Below are positions 7,620-49,524 of a stretch of 64,000 nt of DNA, piece after piece. Numbering within the stretch: the stretch's first letter is position 1; each line of letters opens with the position of its first letter. Under the pieces are notes generated by a model that saw only the letters and a program-made list of their open reading frames with translations, was not told the DNA's origin and searched no databases. The stretch comes from Rubripirellula amarantea. GTDB lineage: Bacteria > Planctomycetota > Planctomycetia > Pirellulales > Pirellulaceae. A program made the position numbers and the translations under genes. Location of the stretch: the NCBI RefSeq assembly GCF_007859865.1, contig NZ_SJPI01000002.1:1074721-1138720 (forward strand). Direction: 5' to 3'.

Positions 7620-8264
7620 TCAGTTCACTGCATACCTAGAAAGAAACATCTCGACCGTTTGGGCGACGATTTGATTGCGTTTGCGGCGTGAGGGTGGAGG
7701 CTCGCCGTGGACGATGGTTGGCCAGAAAGCAAACGTCCGCAGCAACCCGACGAACTGCATCGCTGCGAACTCGGCGTCGGCTTCAAGTAGACAGCCGGAA
7801 GCTTGCGCTTTCTTCATCCATGTGGTCACTCGCCGGATGAAGAATCGCTGATCGACCTGCTGTCCCGCATCCGGTTCCCCCAGCACGCGTGACAATCCGG
7901 CTCGGGCGAGTGCCTGCACGTCTTCCGACGTGAAAAAGTCAATCTCGGACTGTGCAAGCTCCGTCAACTGTTCGGCGAGATCACGCGAATCGTCGAACTT
8001 GCATTCCGGCAATTGCTCGACGCGGAACTTTAGTTCCTCAATGATCTCAATAAACAGAGCTTCCTTGCTGTCGAAATGGTTGTACAGCGTGCGTTTGCTG
8101 ACCGAGGCGGCCTCAGCGATGCCGTTCATGCTGGCAGCAAAATAGCCGTACTGCTGAAACGCCTCGACGGCCGCCTGCACGATCGACGCTCGCTTGCGAT
8201 CGGTCAGGCGTCCATGGAGCGCTGGCTCAGAAGGTACACTTTGCGGTTTACTTTTTCCTGGCAT
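7620..8264 (-). CDS. TetR-family regulator of the adjacent RND efflux operon
   Basis: A 214-residue TetR protein. The N-terminal helix-turn-helix is at residues about 28-65 (FAASMNGIAEAASVSKRTLYNHFDSKE), followed by a C-terminal ligand domain of the TetR_C AefR-like type. The start MPGKSK (8264) is preferred because the 23 residues upstream run through the operator-like palindrome. It is divergent from the membrane fusion gene at 8373, the standard arrangement for a local repressor of an efflux pump. Confidence 0.88.
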   Translation of the reverse strand: MPGKSKPQSVPSEPALHGRLTDRKRASIVQAAVEAFQQYGYFAASMNGIAEAASVSKRTLYNHFDSKEALFIEIIEELKFRVEQLPECKFDDSRDLAEQLTELAQSEIDFFTSEDVQALARAGLSRVLGEPDAGQQVDQRFFIRRVTTWMKKAQASGCLLEADAEFAAMQFVGLLRTFAFWPTIVHGEPPPSRRKRNQIVAQTVEMFLSRYAVN

Positions 8265-35825: not shown

Positions 35826-36726
35826 GAGCGAGCTCCTCGCTGGTTTCATAAAACAACGTCGCCCAATCTTCGGCTGGCATGCAGTGCAGCCGAATGGTGC
35901 GGTCGCCAGCCATCCCCGCAATCTGGATAAAGTGGTCGGACTGTTGTTCGATTTGCGACACGGTTTCAAAGAGCGTCTCGCTGCTTAAGCAAAACACTCG
36001 ACCGGGACCACCGAATTTGCGAGCGGCTTCTTGAAGTTTGATGTCTGTGGTTTTGGATTCCCGCATGGCTTCGGGGAATGCGAGCGATGTGACGTAGCCA
36101 AAAACGTTGGTGGGAATTCGCTTTGCTGCTTGATGAACGTGAAAGTAACCGGACGTCCGGTAGTAGCTGAGCAGACCCAGTTCTCGGAACGGGCAATCAG
36201 CGCCGTCTTCGGGGTCGTCGTTTCCGGCGGGCACTGCACGGGCGTAACTGAGCAGCATGCAGCCAAGATCACGGGAGAGCGTCGAAGTGCTGGGGACACG
36301 TTTTTGCGACGACTCGATGAAGCGGCGAAGCGACTCGAGGCAAACAGCTCGATCAAATCGGTCGTGACTGAAGTTGTTGAAGAACCAAGACCAGGTTGTC
36401 GTTGCGTTGATATTGTTAACGAGATTCGCGTGCAGGATCCACCAAGTGCCTTCGTTCAAGAAGAACGGATCGTAGTCCCAGATGAGTTGCCCGAGCTTGG
36501 TCGGTTGAAGTAGCGTCGCACGCCCACGGGATTCTGTACCGTCGACTTCAGCAAGTCCGGTGACCATCAACCAATGACGAACCGACTTGGCCATGTTGCG
36601 GCCGACACCGAGATAGTCGGCCACTTCTTCGTCGAGGAATTGTTCTGGCGTTTCCGCTACCAGCTTCATGCCTTTGTGAAGCCACCCTTCGCGAACGGGG
36701 AATGTTTCGTGACCGCTAAACTTCAT
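35818..36726 (-). CDS. sspB: SspB, DUF4007 protein
   Basis: 302 residues opening with the DUF4007 signature FSGHETFPVREGWLHKGM, then a winged-helix-like segment (DYLGVGRNMAKSVRHWLMV). SspB is described as the DNA-nicking/binding component that prepares the strand for sulfur insertion. It overlaps sspA by 11 bases and sspC by eight. Confidence 0.9.
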   Translation of the reverse strand: MKFSGHETFPVREGWLHKGMKLVAETPEQFLDEEVADYLGVGRNMAKSVRHWLMVTGLAEVDGTESRGRATLLQPTKLGQLIWDYDPFFLNEGTWWILHANLVNNINATTTWSWFFNNFSHDRFDRAVCLESLRRFIESSQKRVPSTSTLSRDLGCMLLSYARAVPAGNDDPEDGADCPFRELGLLSYYRTSGYFHVHQAAKRIPTNVFGYVTSLAFPEAMRESKTTDIKLQEAARKFGGPGRVFCLSSETLFETVSQIEQQSDHFIQIAGMAGDRTIRLHCMPAEDWATLFYETSEELAHV

Positions 36727-37909
36727 GCTTGGCTGCTCCTTGCAAATAATCCGACTGCGACGGCGGCGATTGAAAGCCCGAGAGACGGGCGACTATCGAA
36801 ACCAACTTCGCCGCAGCGGTTTCGACTTCCACCATTGTGTTTTGATTTGAAAAACTGAACCGCACACTCGCGAACGCCTCATCCTCGCTTAAACCCATCG
36901 CGCGAAGAACATATGACGGCTCAGGGCGATTGCTTGTGCAAGCTGAGCTTTGTGAACAGCGAATCCCCTCGCGATCGAGCAACGCGACTATGGCCGCGCC
37001 GTCGAGTCCTGGAAACATCATGTTTGTCGAATTGCAGAGCCGATCTTCCGTACTGCCGTTGATTTCAATCTGCGGAATCGCGGAAAGAACTAAAGACTCA
37101 AATTGATCTCGCAATTTAGTGATGACCTCAACCGCTGCGTCAAATGATCCTTCCCTTTCACTTGCGGCTCGACCGAACCCAATAATGCCTAGCGTGTTTT
37201 CGGTACCTGGACGAAGTCCAGTCTCTTGATTGCCTCCACGAAACAATGGTTGAAGCGTTCGCGGCTCTTTAACGCACAAAGCGCCAATGCCGGTCGGTCC
37301 ATGCATTTTGTGAGCTGATGCGGTCAAGTAGTCGATACCGGTCCCCGAGAAGTTAACGCGCAGTCGGCCCGTAGCTTGAGCTGCGTCGCAATGAAAGGGC
37401 ACTTTAAACCGCCGACAGATAGCAGCGATCTCGCGAATCGGTTGGATCACACCGGTTTCGTTGTTTGCCCATTGAACCGAGACGAATGTCCCACCATCGG
37501 CAACCGCGGCAGTAAGTGAGTCAATATCAAGGCGACCATCACGACCAACAGGCATTCGCGTCACCCGAATCCCTTCCGCCTCTAGAATGTTTGCGGTTTC
37601 GATCACGCAGGAGTGTTCGACCTGGCTGGTCACTAAATGCGGCGATTGATGACCACGAAGGGCGTTAGTCAATACCCAATAATTCAGCTCCGTTACACCG
37701 CTGCCAAAGACAATGCTTTCGGACTTGGCCCCCAACAACAACGCCACCGAGTCCCGAGCCTGCATAATCGCCCGTCGAGTCTTCTCGCCGGAACGGTGTT
37801 CGCTGGATGCATTGCCGAAATCCTGATTGATTGCCGTCGACAACGCTTCACGTACCTCATCCGAGGGATGTGTTGTGGCGTTGTTGTCGAGGTAAATCTC
37901 AGGTTTCAT
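36716..37909 (-). CDS. sspA: SspA/DndA-type cysteine desulfurase
   Basis: 397 residues from MKPEIYL. A NifS/IscS-like PLP enzyme: YLDNNATTHP at the start, PLP Lys201 in SAHKMHGPTGIG, and the persulfide Cys324 in SQSSACTS. It supplies sulfur to SspD. First gene of the sspABCD operon on the minus strand; the 247-base gap upstream holds no gene and should contain the promoter. Confidence 0.9.
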   Translation of the reverse strand: MKPEIYLDNNATTHPSDEVREALSTAINQDFGNASSEHRSGEKTRRAIMQARDSVALLLGAKSESIVFGSGVTELNYWVLTNALRGHQSPHLVTSQVEHSCVIETANILEAEGIRVTRMPVGRDGRLDIDSLTAAVADGGTFVSVQWANNETGVIQPIREIAAICRRFKVPFHCDAAQATGRLRVNFSGTGIDYLTASAHKMHGPTGIGALCVKEPRTLQPLFRGGNQETGLRPGTENTLGIIGFGRAASEREGSFDAAVEVITKLRDQFESLVLSAIPQIEINGSTEDRLCNSTNMMFPGLDGAAIVALLDREGIRCSQSSACTSNRPEPSYVLRAMGLSEDEAFASVRFSFSNQNTMVEVETAAAKLVSIVARLSGFQSPPSQSDYLQGAAKHEV

Positions 37910-38156
37910 TCGGACTCCGTCCCTCACGGGCTTTGATTTGCTAGCATTTTACGGAATGAGTGAGAAACTTGCGACGGGCGTAGCGTGCTTGATCTCCAAG
38001 CCGGTGTTATGGCCGACCGGTTGGAGGATACAGGTAAGCTGTGACACGTTTGGTCCGGCAGTGGCAATGAGGCGAGAGGTTGTCGCCTTCGCGCCAGCAC
38101 ACGCTCGAGGCCATTTCTGGCAGCTCCGTCGCTTACTAGGCGATTTCCTTCGCCGT

Positions 38157-39392: not shown

Positions 39393-41135
39393 ATGAACAC
39401 AACAATCAAAGCCATTCCAATGGTCCTTGCCGGCCAGGCCCTAAATTCACTTCGCGATTCAGGTTATGACCTTGCGACAGCTTTAGGCGAACCGGTCGAC
39501 AACAGTCTCGAAGCGAATGCAAATCTCGTCCAAATTCGACTCGATCAATCAACCAACGATCGAGGCAAGAAGCACATTCATCAGATTGTCATTGCCGATG
39601 ACGGTGATGGAATGAACGAAGATACCCTGTGGCACTATTTGCAACTGGGATATTCCTCGCGATACATGAGCAAGAAGACTATCGGTAAGTACGGCGTAGG
39701 TGCAAAACTTGCTGCGCTGAACTTCGCACGACGAATCGACGTGTGGAGTCGAACGGCCGATGGTCCATGGCGGCATGTCTACTTTGACCTCGATGAAGTG
39801 CGGCAGGGTGAACAAGGTGGCGAAGTACCAGGGATCGCCCAGCCGGAAGAGATGGAGGTACCCGCTGAACTAAAACTGAAGCTACCTTCGTCAAGCGGTA
39901 CGATTGTCGTTTGGTCCAAGGTGGACCGCTTGGAGGATGGGCGGCGAGCACCTGACGCCAACGAGCTTCGGCTCGAAGTCGAAAAGGAACTGTCGCGAAT
40001 TTTTCGGTACTTTCTTCACGGAGGGCGAAGGATCACGGTTAACGAGACTGACCTAGTTCTCTTTGACCCTTTAATGTCGATGGATCAGAGTTGGGCAGAC
40101 CAGGTATTGAGTGATCATTACAGCAACGCAAAAGCGACCAAAGGTGCGAAGAAGAAACCACGGGAGGAGCACTTCGGCTCAAAATTGATTTGGGAAGAGC
40201 CAGTGAAAATTGAGGGGCACGAAGCCTTGGTTCGCATCACGTTGTACCCTCGCGAAGTTCTGCGAAAACGCGGGACCGGCGGTGATAAGCTCGCAAAAAA
40301 GCTTCGTCTTCCCGAGAACGAAGGCAAAATCTCATTTGTTCGACTTGATCGGGAGGTTTCATACACGAATGTTCCCCGGATTTTTGGGCGGGCCGTCCAG
40401 GAGCCTGATCGCTTTATAGGAATCGAGGTTTCGTTCACGCCGGAATTGGATGACTACTTTGGAATTCGCAACGTCAAACGCGGTGTTGAGCCACACGGCG
40501 AACTTCGCGAAAGAATCCGAACGATCATAAAAAAATATGTCACGACCGCTCGGAAAGAGATTGACGAAGTCTGGGGTGCAGCTGCAAGGGATACGCTAAG
40601 CACGCAGGGTGAACATGCCAGCATCCTTGATGCCGCGAAGAATGCCGGTCGAACACTTCCTAGTGGGCGAGCGAAAGGCCCGGAAAGCCAAGAAGAAAAA
40701 GACCAACTATTGGACGATCTCGCACGAGATGTGGTGGGGTCCGACGTCGATAAAGAAAAGGAACGACTTGAGTACATTGAACGCTTGAAGGAACTCCCTT
40801 TCGTGGTTGAGTCGGTGGATTTTCCTGGCACGCAGTTCGTCGATATCCAACACGTTGCTGGCAAGGTTCTGATTCGCCTGAATACCAGGCATCGTTTCTA
40901 CCGAGAAATGTGGGCACCAGTTCGAGAGATTGCATCTCTTGATGCCGGGAGCGTCTCAGGTGCCGATGCCGTGAAGGCAGCGCGTCGCACAATCGAAGCG
41001 TTGACATTGATGATGATTGCATTCGGTAAGGCCGAATCAATGCATGAGGATCCGCAGGAGCAATATGGTGAACTGAGAAGCTACTGGGGGCAGTTCTTGA
41101 GTTCCTTGATGGGCAAGGTGAAGGACATCGTTTAG
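39393..41135 (+). CDS. GHKL (MORC/Hsp90-like) ATPase of the defence island
   Basis: 580 residues. ATP-site motifs of the GHKL fold are all visible: Glu33 and Asn37 in GEPVDNSLEANA, DDGDGM at 69-74, and GKYGVGAKLAALN at 98-110. The rest follows MORC/MutL-like architecture with a helical C-terminal part. Such ATPases occur beside restriction and modification systems. The ribosome site AGGAGT precedes ATG 39393. It may be the partner that acts on unmodified DNA here (inference). Confidence 0.8.
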   Translation: MNTTIKAIPMVLAGQALNSLRDSGYDLATALGEPVDNSLEANANLVQIRLDQSTNDRGKKHIHQIVIADDGDGMNEDTLWHYLQLGYSSRYMSKKTIGKYGVGAKLAALNFARRIDVWSRTADGPWRHVYFDLDEVRQGEQGGEVPGIAQPEEMEVPAELKLKLPSSSGTIVVWSKVDRLEDGRRAPDANELRLEVEKELSRIFRYFLHGGRRITVNETDLVLFDPLMSMDQSWADQVLSDHYSNAKATKGAKKKPREEHFGSKLIWEEPVKIEGHEALVRITLYPREVLRKRGTGGDKLAKKLRLPENEGKISFVRLDREVSYTNVPRIFGRAVQEPDRFIGIEVSFTPELDDYFGIRNVKRGVEPHGELRERIRTIIKKYVTTARKEIDEVWGAAARDTLSTQGEHASILDAAKNAGRTLPSGRAKGPESQEEKDQLLDDLARDVVGSDVDKEKERLEYIERLKELPFVVESVDFPGTQFVDIQHVAGKVLIRLNTRHRFYREMWAPVREIASLDAGSVSGADAVKAARRTIEALTLMMIAFGKAESMHEDPQEQYGELRSYWGQFLSSLMGKVKDIV

Positions 41136-41235
41136 GCCTAGAGGCTAGAAAGTACTAACGGTAGCCAAATTGTCGGATCACGAGGCTGCGGTAAACGACT
41201 TGTTAAAGCCCAACGCAATCAGCGGTAAATGAATG

Positions 41236-41272
41236 AAAACGCCCGCGGGGGATTGCTCCTCCACGGGCGTTT
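41236..41272. terminator. Bidirectional terminator between GHKL ATPase gene and rsr
   Basis: AAAACGCCCG...CGGGCGTTT is a GC-rich hairpin flanked by A and T runs on both sides. It sits between the two convergent stop codons (41135 and 41293) and can serve both. Confidence 0.8.
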
Positions 41273-41292
41273 ATTGTTGTTCGTCGTTCGAC

Positions 41293-42951
<1,659 letters not shown>

Positions 42952-43038
42952 GTTTGACCTCCTCGATTGAAAACGGATGTGTTTGAACATCCGGGCAGCC
43001 GCCAGTCTTTGGAAAAGACCCAAGGCGGCGAAGTGAAA

Positions 43039-43148
43039 AACGCACTCGACGAATTGTTGGACAGAGATCCCGCAGGATCGTTTCCGAGCTAGCGGGGCGG
43101 GAGTCGAACCTGCAAAGCCATGTACTCCGTGCCGGCAGTCGAGTGTGT
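43039..43148 (-). ncRNA. Y-RNA-like RNA F, reduced module, upstream of rsr
   Basis: The outer stem CACTCGAC/GTCGAGTG is perfect. The inner stem GGCACGGAG/CTCTGTCC has one bulged C. Between them the 5' strand carries the shared CTGCC and TACAT words, and the 3' strand ends with TTCGTCGAG like the others. The central module keeps a tRNA T-arm signature (GG-TTCGACT-CC) and CCCGC/GCGGG, but the D-arm is not convincing. A T-run (GCGTTTTTC) follows. It ends 87 bases before the rsr start, so it may be transcribed with it. Confidence 0.7.
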
Positions 43149-43158
43149 GCGGTTGAAT

Positions 43159-43215
43159 GTGGGATAAGCTTCCAGCTTGTCGGTTGTTGAATGACAGGCA
43201 GGATGCCTATCCCAC
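43159..43215. repeat. Long imperfect palindrome between Y-RNA-like genes
   Basis: GTGGGATA at 43159 faces TATCCCAC at 43215, with further pairing between the inner CCAGCTTGTC and GACAGGCAGG parts. The design resembles planctomycete REP elements; related words occur near 8310-8350. It separates RNAs F and E. Confidence 0.7.
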
Positions 43216-43244
43216 AGGCAGTGATGCACTTGATGAAAAGAAAA

Positions 43245-43396
43245 ACACGATCGACGAAGTGGTGACCAGAGGTTGTTACGGCGCTCTACCACTGAGCTAC
43301 GCCCCTGCGAGTTTGACAAGCAGTTGGGGCGGTGGGACTCGAACCCACGACACCCGGCTCCTGAAGCATGTACTCAGAATCGGCAGTCGATCGTGT
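43245..43396 (-). ncRNA. Y-RNA-like RNA E with permuted tRNA module
   Basis: The outer stem ACACGATCGAC/GTCGATCGTGT has 11 perfect pairs and is followed by TTTTTC, a terminator-like end. The inner stem GATTCTGAG/CTCTGGTC has a bulged U and a U-U mismatch. The module reads in permuted order: short anticodon-arm side, T-arm GTGGG-TTCGAGT-CCCAC, acceptor CGCCCC, a 20-base loop, acceptor GGGGCG, TA, D-arm GCTC-AGTGGTA-GAGC, then the other anticodon-arm side. The acceptor is thus closed and the tRNA is opened in the anticodon loop. Confidence 0.85.
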
Positions 43397-43403
43397 GCGC
43401 TTT

Positions 43404-43775
43404 CTATTTCGTTTTCTTCTTGGTGGTCTTTCCCATTTGTTTCCAAAGGGAACGGCCGTTGTCTCGGTCGAGTCGCACTAGTTGTTGCTGTCGTGTGTCG
43501 AAAGCGATCAGGTTTCCCTTGGGTCGCTTCGCGTAAACGAACGGCAAGCAAACGGCAACGACTTTGTGCGGTTCGCCGGCTGCGCGAGGCAAGTAGCGAA
43601 GTCGAACGAGTTCGTCGATGGGTTGCGAGATGCCAGAGCAGTCCCACAAGTAGGATGGAAGTTCGATGATCTCGCTGAGGATGGTGACGTAGTCACCTTT
43701 GGCGATATCTTCGCCAGCGATCCTGGCCGCGACGGTGGTCACGGTTTTGGATCGGCTTTCGGTTGTGGTTTTCAT
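43404..43775 (-). CDS. Hypothetical protein embedded among Y-RNA-like genes
   Basis: 123 residues starting MKTTTESRSK. A beta-rich central part (GDYVTILSEIIELPSYLWD) leads to a very basic tail (KQMGKTTKKKTK), which would suit RNA binding. I know no family. The stop lies eight bases before the 5' end of RNA E, and the start 143 bases after RNA D, so it shares the transcription unit. A longer open frame upstream is noncoding-like. Confidence 0.6.
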   Translation of the reverse strand: MKTTTESRSKTVTTVAARIAGEDIAKGDYVTILSEIIELPSYLWDCSGISQPIDELVRLRYLPRAAGEPHKVVAVCLPFVYAKRPKGNLIAFDTRQQQLVRLDRDNGRSLWKQMGKTTKKKTK

Positions 43776-43917
43776 GTTTCCGTAATCGTTGAAAGATTGA
43801 ATGGTGCATGTGTGTTCTCTGCTGAATCGCGAGTGGGGATTACTCGCGGCCGGTCGGAATGGCGAAACAGGAATGTAAAACACGCATAGTTCGATCTCTC
43901 GAGACGATTGGGGAAAA

Positions 43918-44056
43918 CGCGATTGACGAAGTGGGTCGACCAGACAAATTCGATGCTCTACCCACTGAGCTACGAAGCGAACGCGAGGATCGCTTTGGTG
44001 GGACTCGAACCCACGGCCGTCGAGGTGATGTAGTCCAATCTGGCAGTCAATCGTGT
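43918..44056 (-). ncRNA. Y-RNA-like RNA D with complete permuted tRNA module
   Basis: Outer stem CGATTGAC/GTCAATCG; inner stem GATTGGAC/GTCTGGTC, eight pairs with G-U. The module is the clearest of the set: anticodon-stem half TCGA, variable CGGCC, T-arm GTGGG-TTCGAGT-CCCAC, acceptor CAAAGCG(A), loop, acceptor (T)CGCTTCG, TA, D-arm GCTC-AGTGGGTA-GAGC, A, anticodon-stem half TCGA. So a whole tRNA is present in circularly permuted order, its acceptor capped by about nine bases and its anticodon loop replaced by the Y stem. A TTTT run follows. Confidence 0.88.
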
Positions 44057-44062
44057 GCGGTT

Positions 44063-44194
44063 GGCGACGAAGTTTTGGTCAGACGTTGTTGACTGAGCTA
44101 TCGACGATCCTTTCGGATGCCGAGCAGGATTTGAACCCGCGACCTCGCCGCATTGCGACGCGCTCTACCCATGTAGTCCGAACCGGCAGTCGCC
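44063..44194 (-). ncRNA. Y-RNA-like RNA C with tRNA module opened in the D-loop
   Basis: Outer stem GGCGAC/GTCGCC, inner stem GGTTCGGAC/GTCTGACC with a bulged U. The module starts within a D-loop (GGGTAGAGC), goes through an anticodon-arm region, T-arm GCGGG-TTCAAAT-CCTGC, acceptor TCGGC(ATC), a CGAAAG loop, acceptor (GAT)C-GTCGA, TA, and ends with the D-stem half GCTCAGT. The D-stem GCTC/GAGC closes at the junction with the Y stem. RNA D begins six bases downstream. Confidence 0.85.
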
Positions 44195-44212
44195 GTGGTT
44201 TGGTTGAAGACG

Positions 44213-44275
44213 GATCGACGAAGGGACAACTCAGATGTTTCACATTTGCAATGTAATCCAAGCCTGCAGTCGATC
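44213..44275 (-). ncRNA. Y-RNA-like hairpin B, behind tRNA-Cys
   Basis: A 63-base hairpin without a tRNA module: outer GATCGAC/GTCGATC, then an internal loop with the shared CTGCA and CCTTC words, inner GCTTGGAT/ATCTGAGT, and a terminal ACAT-TGCAA-ATGT. Exactly six bases (CTGACT) separate it from the discriminator base of tRNA-Cys, so tRNA 3'-end maturation would create its 5' end. Confidence 0.8.
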
Positions 44276-44281
44276 AGTCAG

Positions 44282-44352
44282 AAACGCTGGTGGGAGTCGA
44301 ACCCACTTTGGCCGGGTTGCAACCGGCTGCCTGGCCATCTGGCTCCAGCGTT
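44282..44352 (-). tRNA. tRNA-Cys(GCA)
   Basis: Acceptor AACGCTG/CAGCGTT, anticodon arm GCCGG-TTGCAAC-CCGGC, T-arm GTGGG-TTCGACT-CCCAC. Discriminator U73 is the known Cys identity base. CCA is not encoded. Confidence 0.9.
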
Positions 44353-44428
44353 TTATTGCTCGCGGGGTTGCCGCGAGCGTGTGTTGTTCAGTCGTCGTCT
44401 CTAAAAGTAGTCGTCGCGATTGACGCCA

Positions 44429-44593
44429 TCACAGACGCCCCGATCGTAGGCAACAACGTTTGAACCGCTGACCGCTGCCGCATGGGCACAGGTCGTTTCG
44501 GCCGAGTTTCTCCTCGAGTTGCTTGCCTTGGATGATTCGGACTCCGCGTTTGACTTTCGTTTCTGACGGGTAGCCTTTACGACGTTTGCTCAT
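44429..44593 (-). CDS. Small SEC-C motif protein
   Basis: 54 residues from MSKRRKG (an ATG 11 codons earlier at 44626 is an alternative). The C-terminal [20 protein letters not shown] is the SEC-C zinc motif found at the end of SecA and in many small proteins. The N-terminus is basic. It sits within the tRNA array on the same strand. Confidence 0.75.
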
Positions 44594-44692
44594 CGGCTCG
44601 AAAGCATTGGGCGTTGTCGTCGTCACATTGGTGTTCGTATCGCATCGTTCTGCTCCGGTTTGAGTGTGAAAACGTTTAATTGTGCAAAGACC

Positions 44693-44757
44693 AATCGGCG
44701 AAGGTACAACTCAGATGGTTCACATTTTCAAGATGTAATCCGAGTCTGCAGTCGATC
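44693..44757 (-). ncRNA. Y-RNA-like hairpin A, behind tRNA-Arg(GCG)
   Basis: Outer GATCGAC/GCCGATT (one A-C mismatch, one G-U), inner ACTCGGAT/ATCTGAGT (eight pairs), terminal ACAT-CTTGAAA-ATGT. The same CTGACT hexamer as in B links it to the tRNA-Arg discriminator base. Close paralogue of B and simplest member of the family. Confidence 0.78.
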
Positions 44758-44763
44758 AGTCAG

Positions 44764-44836
44764 TGCTCTCGCCAGGAATCGAACCTGGTCTACGACCTTC
44801 GCAAAGTCGCGTGCGAATCCAGCACACTCCGAGAAC
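44764..44836 (-). tRNA. tRNA-Arg(GCG)
   Basis: Acceptor GTTCTCG/CGAGAGC, anticodon arm CGACT-TTGCGAA-GGTCG, T-arm CCAGG-TTCGATT-CCTGG. Anticodon GCG reads CGC/CGU. Confidence 0.88.
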
Positions 44837-44844
44837 ATTTGGAG

Positions 44845-44916
44845 TAACCCGCCCAGGAATCGAACCTGGTCCGACAGTTTCGAAGACTGTCATGCTATCC
44901 AGCACACCCGCGAGTC
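44845..44916 (-). tRNA. tRNA-Arg(TCG)
   Basis: Acceptor GACTCGC/GCGGGTT, anticodon arm ACAGT-CTTCGAA-ACTGT, T-arm CCAGG-TTCGATT-CCTGG. Anticodon UCG reads CGA/CGG. Confidence 0.88.
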
Positions 44917-44948
44917 ATTTCGTTGTTTTCTTCATTCATAGTCACAAG

Positions 44949-45022
44949 AGCCGACGACTGGGTTCGCACCAGCATGAGCCGCTTTACAAGAGCGGTGCCT
45001 TTCTGCATCGAGCCACGTCGGC
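44949..45022 (-). tRNA. tRNA-Thr(TGT)
   Basis: Perfect acceptor GCCGACG/CGTCGGC, anticodon arm CCGCT-CTTGTAA-AGCGG, T-arm GCTGG-TGCGAAC-CCAGT. The T-loop starts TGC instead of TTC, an unusual change. Confidence 0.85.
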
Positions 45023-45039
45023 CTGGGTTGTCGCATCAG

Positions 45040-45111
45040 TAGCCCGACCAGGAATCGAACCCGGAACTTCTGGTTAGAAGCCAGAGATGATGTCCGTTTC
45101 ACCATCGAGCC
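45040..45111 (-). tRNA. tRNA-Arg(TCT)
   Basis: Acceptor GGCTCGA/TCGGGCT, anticodon arm TCTGG-CTTCTAA-CCAGA, T-arm CCGGG-TTCGATT-CCTGG. Reads AGA/AGG. Confidence 0.87.
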
Positions 45112-45123
45112 GTTTCAAACAAG

Positions 45124-45209
45124 CGGAAGGCGAGGGAGTCGAACCCTCATCACCCGAAGGTGGCACGCGTTAGCAGTGCGGCCCGGCAAACCGTATCCGG
45201 CTGCCTTCC
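45124..45209 (-). tRNA. tRNA-Ser(GCT)
   Basis: 86 bases with the long variable arm of class II tRNAs. Acceptor GGAAGGC/GCCTTCC, loop CTGCTAA, T-arm GAGGG-TTCGACT-CCCTC, discriminator G73 as in Ser. The anticodon stem is weak. Confidence 0.85.
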
Positions 45210-45224
45210 GTAAACAATCGTGAG

Positions 45225-45296
45225 TGGACCGGAAGGGAATCGAACCCTTCCACCGACTTTGCAAAAGTCAGTCGCCTCCTTGGAACATGCCAGCCC
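45225..45296 (-). tRNA. tRNA-Ala(TGC), copy 1
   Basis: Acceptor GGGCTGG/CCGGTCC with G3:U70, the Ala identity pair. Anticodon arm TGACT-TTTGCAA-AGTCG. Confidence 0.88.
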
Positions 45297-45318
45297 ATTT
45301 GTTTCAAACGTCACTCAG

Positions 45319-45389
45319 AGGTCCGTCCGGGAATTGAACCCGGTCTTCGTCCATACCACAGACGCGTGCTGCCGCAACACTTACAGACC
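45319..45389 (-). tRNA. tRNA-Thr(GGT)
   Basis: Acceptor GGTCTGT/ACGGACC, anticodon arm CGTCT-GTGGTAT-GGACG, T-arm CCGGG-TTCAATT-CCCGG. Discriminator U, shared with the other two Thr tRNAs here. Confidence 0.85.
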
Positions 45390-45400
45390 GTTTGTGTCAG

Positions 45401-45473
45401 TGATCACGGATGGAATCGAACCATCGGTCTCCTGCTTGTCACGCAGGCGTCTTAGCCGCTGGACCACGCGATC
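45401..45473 (-). tRNA. tRNA-Val(GAC)
   Basis: Acceptor GATCGCG/CGTGATC, anticodon arm CCTGC-GTGACAA-GCAGG, T-arm GATGG-TTCGATT-CCATC, A73. Confidence 0.87.
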
Positions 45474-45481
45474 GTTTGTCA

Positions 45482-45557
45482 TGACCGAGGTGGGAGTCGA
45501 ACCCACAAAGTCACGAGGCTCTCGACCTCGTCGCTTTGCCAGTTTGCGTACCCGGCC
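45482..45557 (-). tRNA. tRNA-Leu(GAG)
   Basis: Acceptor GGCCGGG/CTCGGTC, anticodon arm CGAGG-TCGAGAG-CCTCG, T-arm GTGGG-TTCGACT-CCCAC. Position 33 is C rather than U and the variable arm is short for Leu, so it may be impaired. Confidence 0.75.
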
Positions 45558-45565
45558 GAATGAAG

Positions 45566-45634
45566 TAGCGGATCCGGGGGTCGCACCCGGCGGTCCTGGC
45601 TTATGAGGCCTGGCTGAGCTCTGGCCCATCCGCA
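45566..45634 (-). tRNA. tRNA-Met(CAT), copy 1
   Basis: 69 bases; acceptor GCGGAT/ATCCGC with U1:U72 unpaired, loop CTCATAA, T-arm CCGGG-TGCGACC-CCCGG. The D-arm is poor. Initiator, elongator or lysidine-Ile use cannot be decided. Confidence 0.7.
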
Positions 45635-45651
45635 TTGTTCTCGCATCGAAG

Positions 45652-45719
45652 TAGCGGGTTCGGGGGTCGCACCCGACGGTCCAGGCTTATGAGGCCCGGA
45701 TGAGCCTGGCTCACCCGCA
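45652..45719 (-). tRNA. tRNA-Met(CAT), copy 2
   Basis: Acceptor GCGGGT/ACCCGC with U1:U72 unpaired, anticodon arm CGGGC-CTCATAA-GCCTG, T-arm TCGGG-TGCGACC-CCCGA. Close relative of copy 1, a tandem duplicate. Confidence 0.72.
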
Positions 45720-45746
45720 TCGTTGTTTCACTACTGAAAGTGAAAG

Positions 45747-45831
45747 TAGCCAAGGCGAGAGTTGAACTCGCACGCCGCATGTGGGCACGACATTCTGAGT
45801 GTCGCGTGTCTACCGGTTCCACCAGTTGGCT
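45747..45831 (-). tRNA. tRNA-Leu(CAG)
   Basis: 85 bases with a long variable arm. Acceptor AGCCAA/TTGGCT, anticodon arm CGACA-CTCAGAA-TGTCG, T-arm GCGAG-TTCAACT-CTCGC, A73. Confidence 0.9.
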
Positions 45832-45844
45832 GTATGAATCGAAG

Positions 45845-45918
45845 TACTGCGGGAGGGAGTTGAACCCTCAAACACGAACGTTTGAAATTCGCCGCTTTGC
45901 CGGTTTGCGTACCACAGC
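45845..45918 (-). tRNA. tRNA-Leu(CAA)
   Basis: Acceptor GCTGTGG/CCGCAGT, anticodon arm CGAAT-TTCAAAC-GTTCG, T-arm GAGGG-TTCAACT-CCCTC. Variable arm short for Leu. Confidence 0.83.
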
Positions 45919-45930
45919 AAGTTGAGTCAG

Positions 45931-46002
45931 TGCTGAGGGCGGGAGTCGAACCCGCAAGCACTTGTTCCTAAGACAAGCGGCTCGCCGTTGGCCTACCTCA
46001 GC
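45931..46002 (-). tRNA. tRNA-Leu(TAG)
   Basis: Perfect acceptor GCTGAGG/CCTCAGC, anticodon arm CTTGT-CTTAGGA-ACAAG, T-arm GCGGG-TTCGACT-CCCGC. Variable arm short for Leu. Confidence 0.85.
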
Positions 46003-46015
46003 GTTTGCGAATAAG

Positions 46016-46086
46016 TGGAGCACCGGGGAATCGAACCCCGATTTTCTGCGTGCAAAACAGACGTCTTCCCGTTGGACGAGCGCCCC
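46016..46086 (-). tRNA. tRNA-Ala(TGC), copy 2
   Basis: Acceptor GGGGCGC/GTGCTCC with G3:U70, anticodon arm TCTGT-TTTGCAC-GCAGA, T-arm CGGGG-TTCGATT-CCCCG. Not a recent duplicate of copy 1. Confidence 0.87.
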
Positions 46087-46106
46087 ATGTTGTTGTTTCG
46101 TTTCAG

Positions 46107-46180
46107 TGCCCAGAGCAGGAGTCGAACCTGCAAACACTCGGGTTTAAGTCGAGCCGCTCGGCCAGTTGGCGTATCTAGGC
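46107..46180 (-). tRNA. tRNA-Leu(TAA)
   Basis: Acceptor GCCTAGA/TCTGGGC, loop CTTAAAC on a CTCG/CGAG stem, T-arm GCAGG-TTCGACT-CCTGC. Confidence 0.83.
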
Positions 46181-46244
46181 GTCTTGTGTTTGGTGCCGTG
46201 GGAAGGACGCGATTGCTCACGCCCTTCCGTTGGCTGCCAACGTG

Positions 46245-46514
46245 TCATGCCCTGAGTCGCGGCGTACTATCGCCCGTTGACTTGCGGTGGTTTCGGATTG
46301 CCTTGCGGTAGTCCGGAACACGCTCGCCTTCGACGATCACGTCGCCGACCGTTTCAACCACCCAGCCATCGACCCAGTTGTCGTCGCTATCTTTCAGCTT
46401 TAGCACTCGGCCGACTTTGGCGAACTGCGTCGGGATGTACGAAGTCGTCACGACGCTGGCACCAGCGACGATGCGTCTCATCGCACATTGCGCGTACTTT
46501 ACGTTTCTGGTCAT
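46245..46514 (-). CDS. Hypothetical protein embedded in the tRNA array
   Basis: 89 residues starting MTRNVKYAQCAMRR after a good AGGAG. It has an SH3-like beta pattern (VGRVLKLKDSDDNWVDGWVV) and a basic tail. No family recognised. Same strand as the surrounding tRNA genes. The upstream part of the longer open frame reads through tRNA-Val and is not coding. Confidence 0.6.
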   Translation of the reverse strand: MTRNVKYAQCAMRRIVAGASVVTTSYIPTQFAKVGRVLKLKDSDDNWVDGWVVETVGDVIVEGERVPDYRKAIRNHRKSTGDSTPRLRA

Positions 46515-46564
46515 CGTCGTCTCCTGGTTAGGCGGAATGAAAATTGTCGTAGCGAAGGTCGAAG

Positions 46565-46636
46565 TAGTCCCGGATGGAATCGAACGATCGTTTCCTGCGT
46601 GTAAAACAGGTGTCGTAGCCGTTGGACCACAGGACT
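46565..46636 (-). tRNA. tRNA-Val(TAC)
   Basis: Acceptor AGTCCTG/CGGGACT, anticodon arm CCTGT-TTTACAC-GCAGG, T-loop TTCGATT on a stem with one C-C mismatch. Confidence 0.85.
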
Positions 46637-46660
46637 TTGTCAAAATGTCGATCCGAAGAG

Positions 46661-46731
46661 CACGTCCCCAAGGATTTGAACCCTGACTAACTGGTTTGGA
46701 ATCAGTAGTGCTACCGTTACACCAGAGACGT
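46661..46731 (-). tRNA. tRNA-Trp(CCA)
   Basis: Acceptor ACGTCTC/GGGACGT, loop TTCCAAA on an ACTG/CAGT stem, T-arm CAGGG-TTCAAAT-CCTTG, G73 as in Trp. Confidence 0.88.
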
Positions 46732-46750
46732 AGAAACTTTTCAAAACAAG

Positions 46751-46835
46751 TGGGAACGCAAGGAATCGCACCTCTCGCCGACTACCACACAATTAAAGGC
46801 AGAAGGGTTACAACCTCCCGTGTGGAAACGCTCCC
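46751..46835 (-). tRNA. tRNA-Tyr(GTA)
   Basis: 85 bases with a long variable arm, as in bacterial Tyr. Acceptor GGGAGCG/CGTTCCC, anticodon arm GGAGG-TTGTAAC-CCTTC, T-loop TGCGATT (unusual), A73. Confidence 0.82.
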
Positions 46836-46853
46836 AAGTTGTCGTCAAACAAG

Positions 46854-46936
46854 CGGAAGCCGTGGGACTCGAAGCCACAACGGTCTTACCCGCAGCTGTT
46901 TTCAAGACAGTGTCCTCATCCGGCCGGGTGACTTCC
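46854..46936 (-). tRNA. tRNA-Ser(TGA)
   Basis: Class II with a long variable arm. Acceptor GGAAGTC/GGCTTCC, loop CTTGAAA, T-loop TTCGAGT, G73. Confidence 0.87.
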
Positions 46937-46958
46937 GTAGTTGCGTTATTGAACGCAG

Positions 46959-47033
46959 TGACGTGAGCGGGAATCGAACCCGCGGACTCCTGGATGAAAA
47001 CCAGACGATTCTGCCATCAGAATCTACCACGCC
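46959..47033 (-). tRNA. tRNA-Glu(TTC)
   Basis: Acceptor GGCGTGG/TCACGTC, anticodon arm TCTGG-TTTTCAT-CCAGG, T-arm GCGGG-TTCGATT-CCCGC. Confidence 0.88.
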
Positions 47034-47064
47034 GTTTTGTTGGCCAGCCTTGTCGCCAGCCGAG

Positions 47065-47136
47065 TACCGCATAGGAGTTTCGATCTCCTTCCTGCTGCCT
47101 GAGAAGCAGCCGACCTAGCCAGTAGTCGAATGCGGC
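47065..47136 (-). tRNA. tRNA-Glu(CTC)
   Basis: Acceptor GCCGCAT/ATGCGGT, anticodon arm GCTGC-TTCTCAG-GCAGC. T-arm AGGAG-ATCGAAA-CTCCT lacks T54, an odd change. Confidence 0.78.
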
Positions 47137-47146
47137 GTTTGCAAAG

Positions 47147-47219
47147 CGATGGCAACGGGAGTCGAACCCGCAGCGACTTGATAGACAATCAAGCTTCCTT
47201 CCCAGAGGAACTTACCACC
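47147..47219 (-). tRNA. tRNA-Asp(GTC)
   Basis: Acceptor GGTGGTA/TGCCATC, anticodon arm CTTGA-TTGTCTA-TCAAG, T-arm GCGGG-TTCGACT-CCCGT, G73 as in Asp. Confidence 0.86.
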
Positions 47220-47231
47220 GTATCGGTTCAG

Positions 47232-47307
47232 GGTGACTAACCGGAATTGAACCGGCGACAAACTCATTCACAGTGAGTCTCTGGAAACCAGCACCAGATC
47301 TAGCCAC
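47232..47307 (-). tRNA. tRNA-His(GTG)
   Basis: Acceptor GTGGCTA/TAGTCAC, anticodon arm ACTCA-CTGTGAA-TGAGT, T-arm GCCGG-TTCAATT-CCGGT, C73 as in His. The base before position 1 is T, so the G-1 is not genome-encoded. Confidence 0.88.
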
Positions 47308-47309
47308 AG

Positions 47310-47384
47310 CGCCGAGGACAGGAATCGAACCTGTGTGTGCCTGATTCAGAGTCAGGTGCAACGACCAGCAGTTGCCGCCTCGGT
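47310..47384 (-). tRNA. tRNA-Gln(CTG)
   Basis: Acceptor pairs at six of seven positions (A1:C72 open), anticodon arm CCTGA-CTCTGAA-TCAGG, T-arm ACAGG-TTCGATT-CCTGT, G73. A weak 1:72 pair is a Gln feature. Confidence 0.87.
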
Positions 47385-47400
47385 GTCTTCGTTTCATCAG

Positions 47401-47468
47401 CACTCCGTCCGGGAATTGAACCCGACCTGCGAGCTTCAAAGGCTCACGTCGCGACTACGCGCCGGAGA
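47401..47468 (-). tRNA. tRNA-Gln(TTG)
   Basis: Anticodon arm TGAGC-CTTTGAA-GCTCG, T-arm TCGGG-TTCAATT-CCCGG, G73. Acceptor pairs only at five central positions and the gene is short (68 bases). Confidence 0.78.
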
Positions 47469-47487
47469 GAGTTTTCAACAATGAAAG

Positions 47488-47559
47488 AGTGTCCTGTGGG
47501 AGTCGAACCCACCTAGCCGGATTGGAAGTCCGGAACCTTTGCCGCTCGGCCAAGGACAC
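47488..47559 (-). tRNA. tRNA-Gly(TCC)
   Basis: Perfect acceptor GTGTCCT/AGGACAC, anticodon arm CCGGA-CTTCCAA-TCCGG, T-arm GTGGG-TTCGACT-CCCAC, U73. Confidence 0.9.
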
Positions 47560-47569
47560 TGAATATGCG

Positions 47570-47640
47570 GAAGTCTGAAGGGCGAGGTGTGAAACGAAGC
47601 GAGCTATTCCACACTTCTCGCTTCACCCTTCAAACTTCGC
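47570..47640. repeat. Imperfect inverted repeat within the tRNA array
   Basis: GAAGTCTGAAGGGCGAG faces a CTCGCTTCACCCTTCAAACTTC arm split by GTGTGAAAC-type spacers. It fills the largest tRNA-free gap of this part and is not a tRNA. It may be a small REP-like element. Confidence 0.5.
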
Positions 47641-47644
47641 GAAG

Positions 47645-47716
47645 CTCCGGCGGATGGACTCGAACCATCACTCGTCTCCTTAACAGGGAGCCGCCTTACC
47701 ATTGGGCCACACCGGA
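47645..47716 (-). tRNA. tRNA-Asn(GTT)
   Basis: Acceptor TCCGGTG/CGCCGGA, loop CTGTTAA on CTCC/GGAG, T-arm GATGG-TTCGAGT-CCATC, G73. Confidence 0.88.
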
Positions 47717-47724
47717 ATTTTGCA

Positions 47725-47795
47725 AGCGCCCAGTGGGAGTCGAACCCACACTTCCGCCATGGCAAGGCAGCAGGCTACCGCTACATCATGGGCGC
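47725..47795 (-). tRNA. tRNA-Gly(GCC)
   Basis: Perfect acceptor GCGCCCA/TGGGCGC, anticodon arm CTGCC-TTGCCAT-GGCGG, T-arm GTGGG-TTCGACT-CCCAC, U73. Confidence 0.88.
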
Positions 47796-47847
47796 AAAAA
47801 TGCATCACTACCAAATTGTCAAAGATCAATACGCCGAAGCGTTCAAG

Positions 47848-47918
47848 AGCACCGAGCCGGAATCGAACCCGCATCACCTCGTTACGACGGAGGAGTCTTG
47901 CCGTTAGACCATCAGTGC
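47848..47918 (-). tRNA. tRNA-Thr(CGT)
   Basis: Acceptor GCACTGA/TCGGTGC, loop GTCGTAA, T-loop TTCGATT with one stem mismatch, U73 as in the other Thr genes. Confidence 0.82.
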
Positions 47919-47938
47919 TTGCTTCAAAATGTCTCAAG

Positions 47939-48011
47939 TGGGATCGGTGAGAATCGAACTCACATCGCTCGGATTAAGAGTCCGATGCATTACCTTGTCT
48001 GCCACAATCCC
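47939..48011 (-). tRNA. tRNA-Lys(CTT)
   Basis: Acceptor GGGATTG/CGATCCC, anticodon arm TCGGA-CTCTTAA-TCCGA, T-arm GTGAG-TTCGATT-CTCAC. Confidence 0.9.
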
Positions 48012-48051
48012 ATGTGTTGTTGTTCTCGGCGTCGTCGTTGTTTTGTTTCAG

Positions 48052-48124
48052 TCGGCGTGGCGGGAATTGAACCCGCGACCGTCGCCTTATAAGGACGCCG
48101 CTCTCACCCCTGAGCTACACGCCG
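48052..48124 (-). tRNA. tRNA-Ile(TAT)
   Basis: Perfect acceptor CGGCGTG/CACGCCG, D-arm GCTC-AGGGGTGA-GAGC, loop CTTATAA, T-arm GCGGG-TTCAATT-CCCGC. An unmodified UAU anticodon for AUA is uncommon in bacteria, which mostly use lysidine-CAU. Confidence 0.87.
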
Positions 48125-48135
48125 ATGCGTAGCGA

Positions 48136-48208
48136 TGGGGCCGAAGGGAGTTGAACCCTCACCGAACGGATTAAAAGTCCGTCATGCTGCCAGTTACACC
48201 ACAGCCCC
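48136..48208 (-). tRNA. tRNA-Lys(TTT)
   Basis: Acceptor GGGGCTG/CGGCCCC, anticodon arm ACGGA-CTTTTAA-TCCGT, T-arm GAGGG-TTCAACT-CCCTT. Confidence 0.9.
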
Positions 48209-48285
48209 GATGTTCGATCGCGGCTATGCGTTTCAATCGCAGTGCAGACAGCATGTTGGTTTTCCTTTCGTGTCGTTGTCGTAAG

Positions 48286-48357
48286 TGGTAGCCCCGAGGA
48301 TCGAACTCAGCGCGACCCGCGTATCAGGCGGATTTGGGCGACCAGCCCTCGACTACC
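48286..48357 (-). tRNA. tRNA-Ile(GAT)
   Basis: Acceptor GGTAGTC/GGCTACC, anticodon arm TCCGC-CTGATAC-GCGGG, T-arm CTGAG-TTCGATC-CTCGG. Confidence 0.86.
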
Positions 48358-48373
48358 GTTGTCGTTTCAAAAG

Positions 48374-48446
48374 TCGGACACCTCGGAGTCGAACCGAGAG
48401 CCTTCCGCTCCCAAAGCGGACGTGCTTCCATCTGCACCTGTATCCG
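48374..48446 (-). tRNA. tRNA-Pro(TGG)
   Basis: Acceptor CGGATAC/GTGTCCG, anticodon arm TCCGC-TTTGGGA-GCGGA, T-arm CTCGG-TTCGACT-CCGAG. C1:G72 fits bacterial Pro. Confidence 0.9.
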
Positions 48447-48504
48447 ATGTTCTGTTTCTTCCATCGCCGCGGCGGTTGCCGTCGGCGCATATCTTCCTTG
48501 TCAG

Positions 48505-48576
48505 TGGGCCGGGAGGCGCTCGAATCCTCGTCTGCGGTTCTTCAGACCGCCGCTAGACCGTCTCAGCTACCAGCCC
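48505..48576 (-). tRNA. tRNA-Phe(GAA)
   Basis: Acceptor GGGCTGG/CCGGCCC, anticodon arm GCGGT-CTGAAGA-ACCGC, T-loop TTCGAGC with one stem mismatch. First gene of the array in the direction of transcription. Confidence 0.87.
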
Positions 48577-48619
48577 AAATTGGGTTCGTTGTTGGGGTTG
48601 CCCGTTCGATGCGGACACG

Positions 48620-48652
48620 AAAAAAGGCTCAATGTCTGCGTGACACCGAGCC
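48620..48652 (-). terminator. Terminator-like hairpin just upstream of the tRNA array
   Basis: On the minus strand GGCTCGGTGTC-ACGCA-GACATTGAGCC is followed by TTTTTT. It lies 43 bases before tRNA-Phe. It may end transcripts from the DUF1569 gene side, or act as a leader attenuator for the array. The rest of 48577-48979 shows no convincing gene. Confidence 0.65.
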
Positions 48653-48979
48653 TTCATGAAGAAGTCGTTCGCTAATGAAAGCGAGTGTCACATCAGACGC
48701 GGATACGCCGGGGCATTATCAAACGACGGTGTCCCGCCGAAGAGATTGCCTTCGTGTATCTGTTCGAGTCGACTGGATTGAATATTCGTTAACATCAGAA
48801 AGCTCGATACTCGCTCGTCTGTGAATGTGACTTGTGTGTTCGGAGAGATAGACTCTCTCGCGGCCAGATGGTTCGCCAAAAATGTCAGCTTCTGCGAAAA
48901 ACATTCTTGGCCGATGCTGCCTCACACGAACATGAAACACCGCTCAGACTCGAAAGTACTCATAGGACGCGAAAAAAGA

Positions 48980-49438
48980 TCAATCGCGGGGTGCAAGGAA
49001 ACGCAAGTGATGAGCGGCATGGGCAGAATGAATTTGCTCAATTCGCTCACGTGGCAGTCGCCCAAACGCTGGATGCGGAGCATAGTCACCAACGTGAGCG
49101 TAGAACCGAGACACGCTCGCAGCAAAAGCTTCAACCTCACGAGCGTCGTCCAGCTCCGCCGGCGGAACGAACATCGACGCTGTGCGAATTCCACGAGGTG
49201 AATCGCCGCCGAGAACTTTCGGCAAGAGGATCCGTCGCATCACAGGACGCAAGAACGCGAAGAATGACATCCACTTCGGATAGCCATCGACGCTCGGATC
49301 TTGCACGAGCGTTAGGTGACGGCAGATTTCCCCCAGCGACCAATTGCCATTCTGGTTGTATCCGCTCTGCAGTAGCGATCGTGCCTCTCGGGCCGCCGCG
49401 TTCAGATCGTCGAAGTGTAGTTCCCGCAGTTGTTCCAT
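48980..49438 (-). CDS. DUF1569 (DinB-like) protein
   Basis: 152 residues with a DinB-type four-helix pattern. The segment NWSLGEICRHLTLVQDPSVD carries a metal-ligand His, and SAHAAHHLRFL ends the fold, as in DUF1569. Function unknown; related DinB proteins are metal-dependent thiol transferases. Confidence 0.78.
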   Translation of the reverse strand: MEQLRELHFDDLNAAAREARSLLQSGYNQNGNWSLGEICRHLTLVQDPSVDGYPKWMSFFAFLRPVMRRILLPKVLGGDSPRGIRTASMFVPPAELDDAREVEAFAASVSRFYAHVGDYAPHPAFGRLPRERIEQIHSAHAAHHLRFLAPRD

Positions 49439-49524
49439 GCGGTTAGTTTAACGCGATAGGACATTGTTGAAACCGAAGTGCAAGCATTGTCGATGCAGAG
49501 CCAACCCTCGATACGAAACTCCCT

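Follow-up and report, generated by a model that had tools for sequence, protein, structure and literature searches.

Divergent candidate Y RNAs between a second tRNA gene set and the rsr (Ro60) gene of Rubripirellula amarantea, with relatives in planctomycetes and phage-like contigs

Ro60 proteins with adjacent Y RNAs, tRNA mimicry by the Y RNA YrlA and Ro60/TROVE genes beside archaeal tRNA clusters are already known; of 29 archaeal tRNA clusters, 20 have a TROVE gene with them (PMC6333295). The rsr-yrlBA-rtcBA operon of Salmonella is induced by tRNA fragments, and the authors of that report raise two possibilities, that Rsr and Y RNAs could take part in tRNA decay or that the tRNA-like domain of YrlA could inhibit the nuclease (PMC7790460). 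Ro60 has been described in jumbo phages and in a Listeria phage, with Y RNAs proposed in the latter (PMC7824862, PMC7765460, PMC12282133); Y RNAs in mycobacteriophages are also cited (PMC12282133), and yrlA is predicted in some mycobacteria, separately from the remarks of the same article on tRNA clusters (PMC9569102). Phage tRNAs have been proposed to evade anticodon nucleases (PMC10264068). The function of bacterial Ro60 and Y RNAs, the tRNA mimicry of Y RNAs and the spare tRNA sets of bacteria and phages are questions that have mostly been treated apart. In this study, a stretch of 64,000 nucleotides of the planctomycete Rubripirellula amarantea (contig NZ_SJPI01000002.1, positions 1,074,721 to 1,138,720 of the forward strand; hereafter the window) was analysed, in which six Y-type RNA elements lie between a second tRNA set, whose end they overlap, and rsr, a gene identified as Ro60 by sequence and predicted fold. 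A recurrent unit of this kind joins the three questions, so that the links among them become testable at one locus: the excision of Y RNAs by tRNA-maturing enzymes, the recruitment of partners by tRNA-like modules, and the action of Ro60 on spare versus damaged tRNAs.

Read 5′ to 3′ on the minus strand, 32 tRNA genes called by ARAGORN (48576-44281) are followed by the Y-type elements and then by rsr (42951-41293), and the end of the tRNA array is interleaved with the elements. All six minus-strand elements proposed in an earlier note on this DNA were present within a few bases of where it had placed them, and were recovered by R1, a covariance model built from 19 short elements, in which the two short elements of the window are training rows and the four long ones are not. 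Element 1 (44689-44760) starts 2 nt after tRNA-Arg(gcg) (44763-44836) and element 2 (44209-44278) 2 nt after tRNA-Cys(gca) (44281-44352), the last tRNA of the array; both are short and YrlB-like and scored 79.6 and 71.9 bits in R1. Element 3 (44058-44198; R1 span 44060-44196), element 4 (43917-44055), element 5 (43245-43395) and element 6 (43040-43147) are long and scored 28.2 (E 1.8e-4), 34.7, 26.2 and 34.3 bits, respectively; element 3 also scored 83.0 bits in the model R2, of which it is a training row. The six copies had been described as standing in a row. The number is correct, and the row is broken: the gene of a SEC-C-like protein and tRNA-Cys separate elements 1 and 2, the gene of a 123-aa protein separates the fourth and fifth, and two of the elements sit at the end of the tRNA array.

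The shared architecture that the earlier note had described was found in all six elements. The outer stem, with GAC/GUC or a variant at its end, leads into an internal loop that carries CUGC on its 5′ strand and UUC on its 3′ strand; an inner stem and a UACAU word complete each element. A descriptor scan covered 31 rsr loci and the window, with CTGC, outer-stem pairing and TTCG (or TACG) as selection criteria. It returned 98 candidates, located in the window and in 27 of the loci; three were dropped as false (two overlapped tRNA-Cys and one lay far from the cluster), leaving 95, including the six of the window, of which 93 could be placed in register. In the 69 kb upstream of rsr in these sources, 77 of 668 CTGC...TTCG motif pairs had six of six outer-stem pairs, compared with 9 of 2502 in the reverse-strand control (460 kb of the same DNA). 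The conservation of CTGC, TTCG and outer-stem pairing is partly built in because these features were used for selection. Pairing of the inner stem played no part in selection, and its closing pair was G-C in 33, C-G in 18, U-A in 7, A-U in 4 and G-U in 7 elements, such that 69 of 93 were paired and all four Watson-Crick forms occurred; shuffled controls had a mean of 38.8 and a maximum of 53 in 5000.

Two alignments, whose rows were hand-picked for diversity as a subset of all elements, gave the same picture. In the 19 short elements (A2), 94.7% of cells paired versus 18-46% when slid by 1-3 columns, and the covariation score was 0.630 versus 0.306 after shuffling, a value reached by none of 500 shuffles; the number of further pair types was unexceptional (25 versus 23.1 shuffled; 53 of 500). 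In the 40 long elements (A1), 92.1% of cells paired versus 36-48% when slid, with a covariation score of 0.379 versus 0.151. Shuffling does not remove relatedness; the slid controls keep it, yet fall to 18-48% paired. The stem covariation first noticed among the six copies thus extends across planctomycete rsr loci, including the inner stem unused in selection, and the stems are kept in relatives. These elements are conserved Y-type structures.

A permissive Rfam search matched four of the six elements. YrlA (RF02553) matched element 5 with 42.8 bits (E 4.7e-7) and element 4 with 38.0 bits (E 1.2e-5), and YrlB (RF02565) matched elements 1 and 2 with 26.8 and 25.8 bits (E 0.049 and 0.091); at gathering scores, only tRNAs were found in the window. 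The YrlA alignment displays the T-arm, acceptor-like stem and D-arm of YrlA, the T-arm preceding the D-arm as in a circularly permuted tRNA, with the Y stem replacing the anticodon arm. The short elements display the UGC...GAUUACAU...GUCG words of YrlB. In a motif test of 40 long elements, the T-arm motif was present in 37 and the D-arm motif in 25. All four long elements of the window carry a T-arm motif and most a D-arm: both arms were found in elements 3, 4 and 5, the last also with an acceptor-like stem, and element 6 has a T-arm-like motif and no D-arm in this test. Chen et al. in 2014 are said to have asked that at least one Y RNA per species carry a tRNA-like domain. Elements 3, 4 and 5 have such a domain, and the array also has an adjacent Ro60 gene and a Y-type stem with an internal loop kept by covariation. 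The reading as Y RNAs beside a Ro60 gene, already put forward in the earlier note, is therefore well supported by Ro60 identity, covariation and the permissive YrlA and YrlB matches, as judged from sequence comparison. Since all of these matches remain below the gathering scores, we name the elements divergent bacterial Y RNAs that stand outside RF02553 and RF02565.

The product of rsr is 552 aa from the ATG at 42951 (several analyses used a protein one codon longer). Pfam vWA_Ro60 matched it with 51 bits (cut-off 27.7) and TROVE with 29.5 bits (cut-off 23; only residues 265-351 matched). Its best sequence match in the Protein Data Bank (PDB) was D. radiodurans Rsr (2nvo, E 6e-19). The predicted model (predicted local distance difference test score, pLDDT, 76.9) matched 2nvo with E 1.2e-16 and a template modelling (TM) score of 0.74 by target length, and all 13 structural matches at E ≤ 0.001 were Ro60/TROVE. 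By sequence and predicted fold, the gene beside the elements is Ro60, and the 6.9-Mb genome holds one TROVE match. Because rsr reaches 97% identity between genera, recent horizontal transfer of the unit was weighed as an explanation; it was rejected, because identity of rsr at fourfold third positions (0.82 versus locus L025) resembles that of two flanking genes (0.82 and 0.86). Some genomes hold two rsr loci, such as Neorhodopirellula pilleata (L002 and L031, the latter a partial match) and R. maiorica (L003 and L005).

The tRNA array is a dense, divergent second set of 32 genes in 4.3 kb, besides 40 tRNA genes called in 35 stretches from elsewhere in the genome. The Rfam tRNA model gave 31-65 bits for array tRNAs versus mostly 54-79 in the rest of the genome. 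For the 27 of 32 with a same-anticodon main gene, identity to the closest was 57-73%, and the anticodon loop was altered in 18 of these 27; U33 was kept in 31 of 32. CCA was encoded in 1 of 32 array tRNAs versus 6 of 40 in the main set. ARAGORN called no Met, Ser or Tyr tRNA in the array. Three stretches that it left uncalled (45125-45209, 45570-45717 and 46855-46936) had weak Rfam matches to tRNA-Sec or viral tRNA-like models, and are perhaps the missing Ser, Met or Tyr genes. A 33rd ARAGORN call, tRNA-Phe at 29116, is far from the array and has no Rfam tRNA match.

The spacing between Y elements and tRNA genes is tight and recurrent. A tRNA-Cys was called in 21 planctomycete loci, and in 20 of them a Y element begins 1-3 nt past this gene (19 of 19 loci were computed; L041, which agrees, and L047, which does not, were judged by eye). 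A search for rsr relatives had given 36 loci, all but one with planctomycete names (some genus assignments are our presumption). R1 matched at E ≤ 0.05 in 31 of 37 sources (the window and L002-L037), always in the sense of rsr, with a match 7.7 kb from a partial rsr match in L035; of the six sources without an R1 match, five extend no more than 60 nt upstream of the rsr match, and the sixth (L014) extends 758 nt. At least 10 tRNAs are carried by 14 of the 36 loci, and many of the others are short contigs.

As read from the R1 matches, L004 carries 11 elements and L025 and L010 ten each (one of those in L010 at E 0.32), compared with six in the window. The earlier view of six copies as unusual stands beside the Salmonella operon with its two Y RNAs (PMC7790460) and fails within the lineage, where 5-11 per locus are common; we have dropped the idea that six is exceptional. 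Elements 3-6 share identities of 0.79-0.95 with their counterparts in L009 versus at most 0.58-0.74 with their own paralogs, thereby indicating that the long paralogs predate the split of these genera. L009 has one short element, to which elements 1 and 2 are each 0.92-0.94 identical, compared with 0.86 between the two. Element types vary from locus to locus, and element 6 has no match above 0.59 in L008.

Among 294 genomes of the phylum, rsr was found in 30 and an R1 match (E ≤ 1e-4) in 9, all of them among the 30 (P 3.6e-10 assuming independent genomes, which is not quite so). This search undercounts, recovering three of six elements in the genome of the window, and some genomes may be kin of training rows. 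Stretches from 14 of the 30 rsr genomes all gave an R1 match at E ≤ 0.05, the weakest being 0.042 (L046) and 0.006 (L053). At least six tRNAs were present in four of these stretches and one or two in three. In L046-L053, whose rsr genes are more distant, the R1 matches instead follow rsr on the same strand, the nearest approximately 20-520 nt away (coordinates by hand) and mostly without tRNAs; in L047, 31 tRNAs precede rsr and one follows it. The genome G205 has an isolated short Y match (L045, 7917-7991), on a different contig from its rsr.

Relatives of this Ro60 were also found in 359 phage records; the best, in Myxococcus phage Mx1, is 38% identical and lies within a tRNA array. A further 34 loci came from IMG/VR, with identities of 35-69% on contigs of at most 481 kb, and ARAGORN called tRNAs in 24 of these loci. 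On 35 sources (the 34 loci and a halovirus stretch), R1 gave 30 matches at E ≤ 1; four with E above 0.01 were dropped, and 26 were counted. Sixteen of these lie in loci with tRNAs, and 10 of the 16 abut a tRNA within 4 nt, whereas 500 rounds of random placement between tRNAs gave a mean of 0.43 and a maximum of 3. A tRNA lies within 4 nt on both sides of seven of the ten, and in L104 the Y element exactly fills the gap between two tRNA-Leu genes. The ten are not all independent because L104 and L119 look related, and two of them are in L090, possibly not a phage. At gathering scores, Rfam found only tRNAs in eight viral loci, five of which have R1 matches.

We did not adopt the contigs as certain phages. 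The family phrog_2, the terminase large subunit, matches 13 of 21 viral records but also 11 of 14 control genomes, and L090 carries ParB, RepB and recombinase genes. L090 and L091, with 64-69% identity, could come from a planctomycete or a plasmid. As far as sequence comparison goes, Y/tRNA/Ro60 clusters recur in phage-like contigs, more loosely than in planctomycetes. Two neighbouring genes were recorded in these contigs. In L120, a viral contig of 481 kb, Ro60 is closely followed by a PARG-type gene (10121-10966); in L098, a viral contig of 320 kb, it is closely preceded by a tRNA (7653-7729) with a CUA anticodon, called tRNA-Pyl and perhaps a suppressor.

We propose that the tRNA array, the Y RNAs and rsr form one same-strand unit, probably expressed as one or a few long transcripts. 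In the proposed sequence of events, excision of the tRNAs by RNase Z and RNase P would also define the ends of the abutting Y RNAs, a step suggested because the tRNA/Y spacing is 1-3 nt. Each Y RNA would bind the neighbouring Rsr through the outer stem and the CUGC/UUC internal loop. When anticodon-cleaving nucleases deplete the ordinary tRNAs, the divergent spare set with altered anticodon arms would replace them; Ro60 and the Y RNAs would manage, degrade or protect damaged tRNA, and the differing tRNA-like modules could act as tethers for different partners or as decoys. This recurrent arrangement points to a possible joint action of Y RNAs and spare tRNAs. That the Y RNAs are made, cut out by tRNA enzymes and bound by Rsr, and that the unit answers tRNA damage, is a reading by analogy in its last part, leaning on the Salmonella operon induced by tRNA fragments. 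We regard the whole, in which Y RNAs, array and rsr answer tRNA damage as one unit, as rather likely. The fuller statement is tentative, and we would sooner doubt it than assert it: that Y RNAs are regular members of tRNA arrays with ends made by tRNA-processing enzymes, that several diverged Y RNAs bearing different tRNA mimics are co-produced with nuclease-resistant spare tRNAs and Ro60, and that this damage kit is common to planctomycete chromosomes and large phages.

Several observations weigh against this proposal or parts of it. Regarding the elements, the YrlA and YrlB scores lie below the gathering scores of 69 and 97 bits, and elements 3 and 6 matched neither family at E ≤ 5 in the permissive search. 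Folded singly, the sequences have unexceptional energies (z -0.63 to -2.25), so folding energy was dropped as evidence and the structural support is comparative, not thermodynamic. A sigma-70 scan of 41000-49500 found no promoter versus 3.2 expected by chance, and the transcription unit is therefore unproven. An RtcB gene is present in the genome and unlinked to rsr. Regarding linkage, a Y element adjoins tRNA-Arg in no more than 3 of 18 loci (the window, L025 and L035), and tRNA-Cys of L047 has no R1 match within 5 nt. ARAGORN called no tRNA in the 6.7-10 kb upstream of rsr in L007, L027 and L032, and called one in L012 and three in L029 within 10 kb. Seven of the 14 further genome stretches have no tRNA; linkage of Y elements to a tRNA array is not obligatory. 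In the phage-like material, no R1 match lies within 5 nt of tRNA-Cys in L104, L110, L113 and L123. The stretch around Ro60 of halovirus HGTV-1 has one annotated tRNA and no R1 match, and phage Mx1, with Ro60 among tRNAs and no R1 match, was dropped as a full parallel.

The seven tRNA-free genomes, each with rsr and at least a weak Y match, would also fit a unit for ordinary RNA quality control, in which Y RNAs bind Rsr for decay of structured RNA with PNPase and the tRNAs provide only co-expression and processing, with no part in tRNA damage or in escape from nucleases. D. radiodurans Rsr and Y RNA do work with PNPase (PMC7790460). The tight abutment of Y elements and tRNAs in planctomycetes and phage-like contigs, and the altered anticodon loops of the second tRNA set, are not what this account leads one to expect, and we consider it unlikely, though the most serious of the alternatives. 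The elements might also not be separate RNAs but hairpins that act in cis in the processing or attenuation of a long tRNA-rsr transcript; their common strand and unit, the lack of a promoter in the scan and the T runs after several elements would allow this. The long elements carry YrlA-like tRNA-like modules, and the R1 matches of L046-L053 lie downstream of rsr and therefore cannot be leaders of its message; we judge such hairpins improbable. The prevalence of T-arm and D-arm motifs among long elements and the position of the elements among tRNA genes could finally reflect decay, in which case the long elements would be remnants of circularly permuted tRNA genes of the array, the short ones would be leftover hairpins in the gaps between tRNAs, and neither would serve Ro60. 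The invariance of CTGC/TTCG is no evidence against decay because the scan required these words. However, an inner stem that is not of tRNA type and was unused in selection covaries, and an R1 match persists beside rsr in genomes without any tRNA in the stretch, leaving decay a very improbable account.

Three small proteins are encoded on the minus strand within the unit. The gene between elements 4 and 5 (43404-43775) encodes a conserved 123-aa protein with 47-99% identity across 11 aligned relatives and tblastn matches in 15 loci (one of 30 aa only); it had no Pfam match. A small beta fold is predicted for it (pLDDT 79.8), and functional assignment was dropped, the best Foldseek match being a ribosomal particle chain with E 0.055 and none reaching E ≤ 0.001. 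Between elements 1 and 2, a 54-aa protein (44429-44593) with a SEC-C-like zinc motif has tblastn matches in nine loci (one of 19 aa only); it is identical in L004 and L035, and 74-98% identical in six more. A small protein within the tRNA array (46245-46514) has tblastn matches in four loci. Elsewhere in the window, a cysteine-desulfurase-like gene lies beside a DUF4007 gene (35818-37927), and both also occur downstream of rsr in L029. The pair is perhaps part of a DNA-modification defence locus.

The long elements resemble YrlA (RF02553) in having a stem with an internal loop followed by a permuted tRNA-like module (T-arm, acceptor-like stem and D-arm), and in lying beside rsr. They differ in that several paralogs occur per locus and 15 of 40 aligned long elements have no D-arm in the motif test. 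The short elements resemble YrlB (RF02565) in their short stem with the UGC, GAUUACAU and GUCG words, and differ in that the gene directly abuts a tRNA. The array resembles the spare tRNA sets proposed to resist anticodon nucleases (PMC10264068) or proposed as an antidefence device (PMC12803027). A dense second tRNA set with anticodon-domain differences is likewise found in mycobacterial tRNA array units, plasmids and phages (PMC5966550, PMC12803027); in their excerpts, the former mentions no TROVE, Y RNA or Ro-like gene and the latter no TROVE, Ro60 or Y RNA. Our literature search found no paper joining Ro60 with a tRNA array or tRNA gene cluster and none joining multi-copy Y RNAs with tRNA arrays, although the 2014 article of Chen et al. 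and two reviews (2018, 2020) were outside the search and may hold an earlier mention; a search for Y RNA with Rhodopirellula gave nothing related. The archaeal TROVE/tRNA clusters belong to another lineage, and the passage that reports them, in a paper that was not searched for Y RNAs, names none (PMC6333295). The excerpts on phage Ro60 genes describe no tRNA-abutting Y array (PMC7824862, PMC7765460, PMC12282133). The Salmonella rsr-yrlBA-rtcBA operon shares with this locus an rsr gene with YrlB and YrlA and a link to tRNA damage; it has two Y RNAs and carries rtcBA, whereas here there are six, RtcB is encoded elsewhere and a tRNA array is joined to the unit (PMC7790460).

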